Position numbers and translations under genes: made by a program. DNA of 64,000 nt from Shewanella sp. CG12_big_fil_rev_8_21_14_0_65_47_15 (GTDB taxonomy: Bacteria > Pseudomonadota > Gammaproteobacteria > Enterobacterales > Shewanellaceae), in the NCBI RefSeq assembly GCF_002783505.1, contig NZ_PFGL01000067.1:46532-110531 (forward strand), in the 5' to 3' direction. The notes beneath the pieces are model-generated. The model was not told where the DNA came from and did no database searches. It worked only from the letters and a program-made list of their open reading frames with translations. This document shows, piece by piece, positions 39,267-46,837 of this stretch (within the stretch, counting starts at the first letter, position 1; every line of letters begins with the position of its first letter).

Positions 39267-39719
39267 ATGAATAAGAAAACACAAACTGCACTGACTGGCG
39301 CCGCACTCGCGATGGCGATGGCAAGCATGGCGGGTTATGCCAATGCCGCCGAACCTATGGCTGGTGCCGACAGTACCGATCTCGTGCATTGTTATGGTGT
39401 GAATACCTGTAAAGGCCATAACGATTGCAAAACCGCCGATAACGCCTGCGCCGGACACGCCAGCTGCAAAGGCAGTGGTTTTGTGGCTATGCCATCAAAA
39501 AGCTGTGGTGATGTCGGCGGTAAAGTCGCCGATGATTGGGTGGGCAAAATTGCTAACGCCGAGCTAGTTCACTGCTATGGCGTTAACACCTGCAAAGGCC
39601 ATAACGATTGTAAAACCGCCGACAACGCTTGTGCGGGCCACGCCAGCTGTAAAGGCAGTGGTTTTGTCGCAGCACCGGCAAAATCCTGCGGTGATATCGG
39701 CGGCAAAACAGGCGCTTAA
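39267..39719 (+). CDS. bufA2: BufA2-like bufferin-type secreted Cys-rich precursor peptide with two tandem core modules
   Basis: Signal peptide [27 protein letters not shown]; two copies of [48 protein letters not shown]; followed by DUF692 and DUF2063 genes. Confidence 0.85.
39381..39524 (+). repeat. Core module 1 of precursor (48 codons)
   Basis: [48 protein letters not shown]. Confidence 0.97.
39564..39707 (+). repeat. Core module 2 of precursor (48 codons)
   Basis: [48 protein letters not shown]; 45/48 aa identical to module 1. Confidence 0.97.
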
Positions 39720-43058: not shown

Positions 43059-43086
43059 TTGACTTTCACTTTTTGCCCATTAAAAT
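43059..43086 (+). promoter_or_regulatory. Putative sigma70 promoter for the OMP-like/mgtE operon
   Basis: TTGACT-16 bp-TAAAAT. Confidence 0.5.
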
Positions 43087-43110
43087 GATGGCGACTTTTA
43101 ATCATTGCGG

Positions 43111-43242
43111 AGACCCACTGTGGGCACACACATAAGCGACAGTAGACGCCCTGTCCAAAAGACAGGATTTAACGCCTAGCACTAGCCCGCAATTTTTTGC
43201 TGCTACCTGCTAAGCAGGGTAGTAGCGTGAACCATTCTTCAC
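43111..43242 (+). promoter_or_regulatory. Structured 5' leader with four consecutive hairpins
   Basis: cccac-t-gtggg; cctgtc-caaaa-gacagg; gctgctacctgc-taa-gcagggtagtagc; gtgaa-ccattc-ttcac. Confidence 0.5.
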
Positions 43243-43431
43243 TCCGCCTCCCCCAAATATCAAATACAAACCATAAAGCCTGAGCCTATGGCTGCGCTTT
43301 CGCCATTCCAGCATATTCGCTGGGGTTCAGTTATGGGTATTTTTTGCATCTCAAAGCACGTTTTTTGCCTCAGTGGACTTCGTTTTCCCTATGGATTAAC
43401 ACCTAAGGGTTTACATCTGAGGAGCCTAAAT

Positions 43432-44148
43432 ATGGCTTACATAAACAACACAGCAATTTTGCGGTCTCTATCCTGTGCAAGTATCAGCTTGTACTACAGC
43501 ATGAGTGCGGCGGCATCCCATCTCGAAGTGGATGATCCCGCCCTCGCGGATCGCTGTGAATTAGAAATGGGCTGGCAACAACCTAGATCGGATCATGCTC
43601 GCCCACAATTAAACGCGGCCACCACTTGCAGCCGCAATCAATGGGAATGGCATTTAGGATTAGTGTCTAATGCCAATAACGATATTCGTGAAGAGCAGGC
43701 TGAAGTCGGTATCAAGCTACCGCTCAACTTAAACTCCCACTCGGGTTCAGGTTCGGATTCAGAGCAGCAGGATGATTGGCACAGCGCAGTGGTGATCAAT
43801 GTGCAGAAAAACCTCGAGATAAGCAACGGGTTTGCCACCGAAGCCTTCGGCATTGTGGGCAAAACCTTAGGCGATTCCGATGTCAGCCTGTATGCCAACC
43901 TAGGTTTCACCCATGGGTTTACTCAATCGACCCAATTACTTGCGGGTATCGCGGCGGCCTATGAACTCAGTAGTCAGCATCGCCTGATAGCCGAGCTTTA
44001 TCAAAAAGAGTTGAGCGAGACTGCCTATCAGTTCGCCTATCAACACACGCCGCAACGACAGCTACAGCTCGAATTGAACCTAGGCAATGCCCTTCGTGGC
44101 AACGCGCTGCAACTTGGCGCAGACATCACCTTTTACTTTGGTCACTAG
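43432..44148 (+). CDS. Putative secreted/outer-membrane protein upstream of mgtE
   Basis: RBS gagg upstream of ATG 43432; C-terminal alternating beta-like segments ending ADITFYFGH; the supplied ORF begins earlier at 43288. Confidence 0.65.
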   Translation: MAYINNTAILRSLSCASISLYYSMSAAASHLEVDDPALADRCELEMGWQQPRSDHARPQLNAATTCSRNQWEWHLGLVSNANNDIREEQAEVGIKLPLNLNSHSGSGSDSEQQDDWHSAVVINVQKNLEISNGFATEAFGIVGKTLGDSDVSLYANLGFTHGFTQSTQLLAGIAAAYELSSQHRLIAELYQKELSETAYQFAYQHTPQRQLQLELNLGNALRGNALQLGADITFYFGH

Positions 44149-44167: not shown

Positions 44168-45541
44168 ATGAACATGAATAACAGCACAAACAACACCAAA
44201 AAAATCATCCATAACCTGCGAATGATTATCGAGCAACGCAGTGCCAGCGCCATGGCTGAATTAGCCGAAAAGCGCCATCCTGCCGATATTGCAGCCGTAT
44301 TTAACGTCTTTAACCAAGCTCAGCAAGTCCTATTGTTGCAACTGGCCTCGCCTAAGGTTTGCGCCAATCTGTTCCGCTACCTGACCGACGAATTGCAGGC
44401 GAGCTTAGTTCAGCAGCTAGATAAAACCACGCTTTCAGCGCTACTGGTGCATATGGCGGCCGATGAACGTGCCGACCTTTATAATCTGCTCGATGAAACC
44501 CAGCAAGCGGCCATTTTACCTGCGCTCGCCTTGGCCAAACGGGAAGATATGCGCACCCTCGCCGCCTATGATAAGGCGAAGGTTGGCGCTGTCATGACCT
44601 CGGATTACACCTTGCTCAATAGCCGCCATACTGCGGCAGAAGCCATCGATACCCTACGCACAGAGGCCGCCGATAAGGAAACCATTTATCAAACCTATGT
44701 GGTGGACATGTTAGGCCGCTTAATAGGAACTGTGTCTTTAAGGCAGCTATTACTGGCGCAGCCCCACGAGCGAGTGGTCGATTTTATGAAACCCGATCCC
44801 GTCGCCCTCGATGCCAATGCCTTTCGCGAAGAGGCGGTGCAGATGATCGCCCATTACGACTTGATGGCGCTGCCCGTAGTCAATGGCAAAGGCCAGCTTG
44901 TCGGTATCGTCACCTATGATGATGCTATGGATATCGCCAGCTCACAGGCGGATCTTGAGTTCACAAAAACCGCGGCCATAGGCAATATCGACCATAACCT
45001 TAAGACCGCCAGCATAGGCTTACTCTACCGTAAGCGCGTGGTCTGGCTGGTGATTTTAGTCTTTGGCAATATCTTCTCTGGAGCGGGTATCGCGTTTTTC
45101 GAAGATACCATCGCCAGTTATGTGTCCTTGGTCTTCTTCCTACCGCTACTTATTGATAGCGGCGGTAATGCGGGCTCACAATCGGCGACCTTAATGGTAC
45201 GCGGTTTGGCCACCGGAGAAGTGGTACTCAAGGACTGGTTATCTATGCTAGGGCGAGAGTTATTTGTCGCCGGATTATTAGGTGCCAGCATGGCGGCGGC
45301 AGTGTCCTTGCTAGGATTTTGGCGTGGCGGCCCTGAAATCGCACTGGTTGTCGCGCTCACTATGCAAATCGTGGTGATCATTGGCAGCTTGATTGGTATG
45401 TCTCTGCCCTTCCTGCTGAGCAAGTTAAAGATGGATCCTGCGGCGGCGAGTGCACCACTCATCACCTCCATCGCCGATATCATAGGTGTGCTGGTTTACT
45501 TTAGCATTGCAACACTGGTGCTCGATTTACCTATGCCTTAG
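44168..45541 (+). CDS. mgtE: Magnesium transporter MgtE
   Basis: CBS domains (VGAVMTSDYTLLNSRHTAAEAIDTLR; VMVVNGKGQLVGIVTYDDA-like) plus TM region with PLLIDSGGNAGSQSATLMVRGLATGEV. Confidence 0.95.
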   Translation: MNMNNSTNNTKKIIHNLRMIIEQRSASAMAELAEKRHPADIAAVFNVFNQAQQVLLLQLASPKVCANLFRYLTDELQASLVQQLDKTTLSALLVHMAADERADLYNLLDETQQAAILPALALAKREDMRTLAAYDKAKVGAVMTSDYTLLNSRHTAAEAIDTLRTEAADKETIYQTYVVDMLGRLIGTVSLRQLLLAQPHERVVDFMKPDPVALDANAFREEAVQMIAHYDLMALPVVNGKGQLVGIVTYDDAMDIASSQADLEFTKTAAIGNIDHNLKTASIGLLYRKRVVWLVILVFGNIFSGAGIAFFEDTIASYVSLVFFLPLLIDSGGNAGSQSATLMVRGLATGEVVLKDWLSMLGRELFVAGLLGASMAAAVSLLGFWRGGPEIALVVALTMQIVVIIGSLIGMSLPFLLSKLKMDPAAASAPLITSIADIIGVLVYFSIATLVLDLPMP

Positions 45542-45748: not shown

Positions 45749-46837
45749 ATGTGGTTTAATTCCAAGCTCAAAACGGAAAATAACATACTCAAGCAGCAAC
45801 TCGCCGAGCAGCAGCGTAGATATCAAATCGAAATTGATGAACTTAAAGCTATGGTGCGTGAAAACGAAACCATGCAGCAGCAATCGCGCCAAAATACCGA
45901 TCTTTTTAATGAAGTGATTGCCTGCCAAAACCAAGGTGGAGAGATGTTACATGCGGTGCGCGATGGTCTAGCTAACAGTGCCGAATTGCTCACCGCCGAA
46001 CAAGATTCACTGTCCGAACTCGATAAAATTTTCGATCAGACCCGTGTCGCCATCGTGAGCTTAGGCAATAGGGCGACCTATATTAATGAACAGGCCATGA
46101 GCAGCATGAAGGCCGTGACCGAACTAGATACGACAACCTCATCGATCAACCAGTTTGTCGCGGCAATTCAAGGCATTTCAGAGCAAACGAACCTTCTAGC
46201 ACTGAATGCCGCCATCGAAGCCGCCCGTGCGGGCGAAGCGGGACGGGGCTTTGCCGTGGTCGCCGATGAAGTGCGCCAACTGGCGAGTAAAGCCCATGAA
46301 GCCAGCAGTCAAATTGAAAAATTGGTAAAGCAAATCGTCGCTCAAGCAACCAGTATTAAAGAGATTGTTCATAATAATCAGAGCAGTGCCATGGATGTCG
46401 CCTCATCATCCACCCAAATCGGCCAAGTGGTTGAAGATGTATTACAGCGCTCAAAGCAAATGCAGCAGGTTATCCATAACGCTGCCACCGCCTCTTTCTT
46501 AAATACCACTAAACTCGACCATGCGGTTTGGAAGAGCAACGTATATCAACTGATTGAAAAACCGAAACATAACCACGATGTAAACTCACATACAGAGTGC
46601 CGCTTAGGGCATTGGTATTTCAACGGATTTGGGGCTGAGCATTATCAGCATTTGAGTAACTTCAAGGCCTTAGATACACCACATAAGGCGGTACACGAAG
46701 CGGGTAAAGCGGCGCTCAATGCAAGGCAAAAAGGTCATCTGCCTGAGATGGTGAAACAACTGCACCTCATGGAAGACGCCAGTATGCGCGTTGTCCATTG
46801 CCTAGATAATCTTATGCGTGATGTGTATCGGGTATAA
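45749..46837 (+). CDS. Cytoplasmic methyl-accepting chemotaxis protein with C-terminal CZB zinc-binding domain
   Basis: [49 protein letters not shown]...[12 protein letters not shown]...H; no TM segment. Confidence 0.9.

Follow-up and report, generated by a model that had tools for sequence, protein, structure and literature searches.

What does the long leader of the OMP-mgtE operon of Shewanella do, and which signal might it read? To our knowledge, the regulation of MgtE outside M-box-bearing bacteria has been poorly described. The leader analyzed here lies on the forward strand of a stretch of 64,000 nucleotides from a Shewanella genome (hereafter the window), as do its parts and the two operon genes described below, and a sequence-only reading had put it forward as a candidate cis-regulatory RNA. 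The sigma-70-type promoter noted in that reading, TTGACT-N16-TAAAAT, was found at 43059–43086 and is kept at 19/19 homologous loci; conservation across Shewanella extends to both hexamers and to the distance that separates them from the RNA core, with a spacing of 47–50 nt between the -35 hexamer and a downstream GGAG in the seven loci compared. Judging from the position of the promoter, transcription probably starts near 43093, and the leader extends over ~340 nt from the promoter to the ATG at 43432. The first gene of the operon (43432–44148) encodes a putative outer-membrane beta-barrel protein (OMP) of 238 amino acids that matches no entry in Pfam or NCBIfam and has a strand-rich structure model of low confidence (mean pLDDT 51, too poor for a structure search). 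It is followed by mgtE (44168–45541), with MgtE_N, CBS and MgtE domains and a TIGR00400 score of 345 bits (cutoff 233). An alternative in-frame ATG upstream of the OMP start, at 43288 (286-aa ORF), was rejected, as it sits in non-conserved sequence.

When 130 Shewanella genomes were searched at the DNA level, the leader element was matched in 20, and 19 were kept after dropping G082, whose match is weak, lacks the core and was rejected as a leader copy. The named genomes carrying the element all belong to Shewanella species. At the homologous loci of these 19 genomes the leader is followed by OMP and then mgtE in strict synteny, and among the sampled genomes OMP is present only where the leader is present, leader-less genomes being devoid of it. 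In one of the carriers, S. indica (G030; L006/L071), the OMP gene lies in two overlapping frames and is apparently frameshifted; the leader and mgtE are retained. An order-wide model search and a pattern search of GTDB representatives yielded no copies outside Shewanella, with the proviso that strongly diverged copies would escape them; a match in Anaerospora lies antisense within a sigma-54-type regulator gene and was taken as chance. IMG/VR contains matches to a 15-mer of the leader.

Across the 19 genomes, conservation is confined to the promoter and to ~120 nt (43109–43228). Identity reaches 98–100% at 43110–43129, ranges from ~78 to 97% at 43130–43229 and drops towards background from 43230, so that the remaining ~200 nt of the leader (43230–43431) are not conserved. 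The leader core of the window is ~80% identical to that of the most divergent clade, against amino-acid identities of ~25% for OMP and ~58–68% for MgtE. The first third of the leader is under strong selection, and we take the leader to be functional because it is conserved. One could read the same conservation without regulation, as the trace of a small peptide with a function of its own or of a recent spread of the operon, the distribution of which in Shewanella is indeed patchy (19/130 genomes); we regard this as very improbable, given that conservation of the core exceeds that of the OMP gene downstream, third codon positions included, and that the 200 nt adjacent to the core have diverged.

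The conserved segment coincides with a structured RNA. The first ~150 nt of the leader are more stable than dinucleotide shuffles (z -3.9, 0/200), and so is the leader as a whole (z -3.6). The alignment defines a stem, P1, that joins TGTGGGC (43119–43125) to GCCCGCA (43185–43191); its consensus, TGTGGRC/GYCYGCA, contains one pair that changes from G-C to A-U and another that changes from G-C to G-U, with 100% of cells paired. Within P1 lies P2, formed by GCG (43136–43138) and CGC (43173–43175), in which the central pair alternates among C-G, U-A and U-G in the homologs; a possible extension by two pairs is often broken. P2 in turn encloses P3, a 6-bp hairpin (CCTGTC-N5-GACAGG, 43150–43166) supported by folding and alignment, with a loop that is variable in sequence and constant in length; the P3 stem is invariant and therefore provides no covariation evidence. 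Downstream, P4 (43199–43226) forms a hairpin of 12 bp with one bulge that folds in every clade. In the most divergent clade its predicted length is 9 bp and, read by eye, the pairing survives sequence changes. Four successive hairpins had been claimed for the first 150 nt of the leader: two of them, P3 and P4, are conserved local hairpins and stand, while the other two do not. CCCAC/GTGGG is more readily accounted for by the longer-range P1, to which it would belong, and GTGAA/TTCAC is absent from the most divergent clade.

The covariation evidence for P1 and P2 is modest. No shuffle reached the observed number of paired cells or the covariation score, and the pairing is lost when the partners are slid against each other; only two pairs, in P1 and P2, are double-changed, a count that is not above that of shuffled columns (233/500). 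The alignment across Shewanella does not show the lack of hairpin conservation by which the sequence-only reading would have been refuted: P1 and P2 covary modestly, and P3 and P4 are intact. Taken together, conservation, strict synteny, the conserved promoter and this modest covariation make a conserved cis-regulatory leader before OMP-mgtE a well-supported conclusion, in agreement with the original proposal.

The assertion that the leader holds no convincing early ORF proved to be wrong. The motif GGAG-N7-GTG (43109–43122) opens an ORF of 19 codons followed by TAG (43177–43179), spanning 43120–43179 and encoding VGTHISDSRRPVQKTGFNA, with homologs VGTHISDSRCPVQVTGLNT and VDTHIGDSRCPVSQTGLFARH. 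Its candidate Shine-Dalgarno (SD) sequence, GGAG (43109–43112), is invariant at the 19 loci, in contrast to the variable bases on its 5′ side, and the GTG start codon of the ORF falls within P1, which encloses the ORF. No other short ORF in the leader bears an SD, and a comparable ORF that begins within ~45 nt is expected in ~3% of leader-like random sequences, a statistic computed post hoc. The ORF is intact in 19/19 copies and the 85 nt of the core contain no indel, though none of the five P3 loop positions is constant; in clade C the ORF stops two codons later, at a TAG common to all copies. On this basis the leader probably contains a tiny gene of 19 codons. Parsimony changes by codon position amount to 7/4/8, with no excess at third positions, and therefore conservation bears chiefly on the nucleotide sequence and less on the peptide. 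With one proline and a single acidic residue (a second one in one clade), the case for the peptide as a ribosome-destabilising motif is weak.

An alternative reading is an orphan riboswitch, in which the 85-nt core would be an aptamer that senses a divalent ion or another ligand directly and the ORF would be coincidental. The aptamer would consist of P1-P2-P3 and of two internal loops that are conserved, ACACACAU/AGCACUA and ACAGUAGAYG/AUUwnn. Internal-loop bases are near-invariant at every codon position, substitutions cluster in the P3 loop and the J2/3 strand, and affected pairs mostly stay paired; the covariation of P1 and P2 and the proximity of an ion transporter operon also speak for this reading, and the Thioalkalivibrio mgtE motif sets a precedent for orphan candidates before mgtE (PMC11109978). 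Against it count the scarcity of double-changed pairs, at the level of shuffles, and the finding that in clades A and B the predicted minimum free energy favors folds other than P1/P2, with a competing stem, AUUGCGG/CCGCAAU, that is present only in some clades. Moreover, an aptamer leaves the invariant GGAGACCCAC 5′ of P1 unexplained, the GGAG therein fitting an SD, and the leader is known from one genus only. We consider direct sensing a serious rival, though less likely than not.

A scan of the leader against Rfam returned no family at the gathering cut-off; relaxing it to E ≤ 10 added no more than two matches below threshold, both to unrelated families. Neither at gathering nor at E ≤ 10 was there a match to the M-box/ykoK leader, to the yybP-ykoY (Mn2+) or NiCo riboswitches, or to the mgtA leader with mgtL, which is the Rfam family Mg_sensor. 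The scan suggested by the sequence-only reading thus bears out its surmise that the leader belongs to a class other than M-box and yybP-ykoY. Searches of the open-access literature, with its incomplete coverage, turned up neither this leader nor any ORF described in the leader of a gammaproteobacterial mgtE gene, which we regard as weak evidence of novelty. A comparable published orphan, the Thioalkalivibrio mgtE motif (SRC-65-1), is likewise a candidate that precedes mgtE and is restricted to one genus; as described, it carries the gene's own SD and AUG inside its P4 stem, whereas the core in the window lies ~240 nt upstream of the OMP start, and the published description sets the two apart (PMC11109978).

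Several leaders in which a short ORF takes part offer further comparisons. In the mgtA leader of E. coli and Salmonella, the short ORF mgtL and alternative RNA structures couple translation to Rho-dependent termination (PMC11282234, PMC11552253). The leader in the window shares with it a short ORF ahead of a (putative) Mg2+ transporter operon; it differs in a peptide without EPDP, a different transporter family, an OMP gene in first position and the lack of an Rfam match. In corA, stem A contains corL, pyrimidine-rich rut sequence flanks stem B, and corA expression falls as translation of the ORF rises (PMC11552253); similarly, the ORF in the window lies within P1 and is followed by a second hairpin and then by a C-rich, G-poor stretch, the bias of which is weak in clade C. 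Both ORFs begin with a non-AUG codon (UUG in corL, GTG in the window) and encode few acidic or proline residues (PMC11552253). Unlike in corA, the alternative stems of the ON state were not found in the window leader, and no Rfam match to Mg2+ leaders was obtained. The 8-codon ORF mgtQ, intergenic in the Salmonella mgtCBRU operon, resembles our proposal in that it controls a Mg2+ transporter by way of local stem-loops; it exposes the ribosome-binding site (RBS) directly (PMC8092293), whereas RBS sequestration is unsupported in the window leader. Finally, the M. tuberculosis M-box combines a Mg2+-related RNA, a uORF and Rho (PMC12810186), and the window leader differs from M-boxes (ykoK leaders), that of M. 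tuberculosis included, in matching the family at no threshold.

The plausibility of a leader ORF was gauged further by comparing the upstream sequences of other mgtE genes, where no Rfam Mg2+ leaders were found before the related genes. In a second gammaproteobacterial family (f39; L139/L140, L150–L157, L167–L191), a conserved ORF of 18 amino acids with an SD, M[SP]SDS[HRK]xR..., lies ~60 nt before mgtE; every SD-bearing instance of the 18-aa M[SP]SDS... ORF precedes mgtE, and other matches to the same 15-mer lack the ORF. Several f39 loci display an inverted repeat, GGTTCGCC...GGCGAACC, between this ORF and the mgtE start, and at a further locus (L137, 550–899) two matches to the TwoAYGGAY RNA lie on opposite strands near mgtE. 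Another mgtE paralog of Shewanella (L215–L224) is preceded by a conserved SD-bearing leader ORF, ME[ISNT][DE]IPPSREN..., in eight genomes and, in divergent form, in a ninth, with R-E-N varying in one copy; downstream of the ORF come a TCCCACCTCGCTGT-like stretch, likewise conserved, and then GGGAGGAC, an SD before the gene. The clear acidic and proline-rich N-terminus of this ORF (MExDIPPSREN...) is similar to EPDP, the acidic/proline motif of MgtL (PMC11282234). In both the f39 and the paralog ORFs, the core codons vary little or not at all, third positions included, and therefore the lack of third-position freedom in the window ORF does not exclude translation. The window ORF and the f39 ORF have SDS(R) in common, a suggestive likeness that could be due to chance. 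Tentatively, and with somewhat less than even confidence, we propose that gammaproteobacterial transporters of the MgtE family are generally controlled through short ORFs in their leaders, with at least three dissimilar leader families each coupling ribosome behavior on a tiny ORF to RNA folding. If true, such a device would extend translation-based ion sensing beyond mgtA, corA and mgtCB.

It is because of the early ORF and of the leader ORFs before other mgtE genes that we deem an attenuator at least as likely as an ion-binding riboswitch. With moderate confidence, we put forward that the leader is a cis-acting attenuator of OMP-mgtE composed of a leader ORF and a structured RNA, akin to mgtL or corL, with Mg2+ as its presumed signal. 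The short ORF would act from within the conserved P1-P3 fold, followed by the P4 hairpin and a C-rich stretch. The input would be ribosome start and elongation on the 19-codon ORF, dependent on Mg2+ or a related divalent ion; translation of the ORF would decide the folding of P1-P3 and thereby whether transcription proceeds into OMP and mgtE. Our best guess for the output is Rho-dependent termination via the C-rich stretch. Ion-dependent ORF translation as the input and Rho termination as the likeliest output are proposed on account of the corA-like layout in the window; translation of the ORF, Mg2+ as the signal and the nature of the output step are all points that we infer. The attenuator and aptamer readings are not mutually exclusive, and the former is favored over a riboswitch.

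The output is the weakly supported part of the attenuator model. The one feature that points to Rho is C-richness: a C-rich, G-poor stretch at 43230–43285 may be a Rho loading (rut) region. When 60-mers are ranked by C minus G, it falls in the top 0.1–0.8% in clades A and B and only in the top 5–11% in clade C. As regards intrinsic termination, P4 is followed by no T run, and no terminator is listed on the forward strand. SD sequestration by the C/U-rich stretch, computed with the L010 row excluded, did not exceed shuffles in clades A and C and was marginal in clade B, where 4–17% of shuffles were as good. Two other candidate switches, a mutually exclusive pairing of the uORF with the 5′ arm of P4 and an alternative pairing of the P4 3′ arm with downstream sequence, performed no better than shuffles.

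That these pairing tests yielded no output step, in an RNA conserved in sequence and structure without a known ligand, would also suit a leader bound by a protein or a 5′ element protecting the mRNA, with no ion sensing involved. We judge this unlikely: a near-invariant, continuous stretch of ~75 nt exceeds what is usual for a simple protein site, and the association is with a single transporter operon only. As it stands, the leader is a good candidate for an RNA or ribosome switch that tunes the transport of magnesium or another divalent ion. If it is coupled to translation, leader-ORF ion sensing would have arisen repeatedly and would cover another transporter family; if it is not, the leader would constitute a new orphan riboswitch candidate.

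The surroundings of the operon in the window include, immediately 3′ of mgtE, a methyl-accepting chemoreceptor with a zinc-binding CZB domain (45749–46837). Further upstream, a BufA2-type bufferin precursor (39267–39719), whose cysteine-rich unit occurs as two near-identical tandem repeats, is followed by bufB and then by a bufC-like gene.
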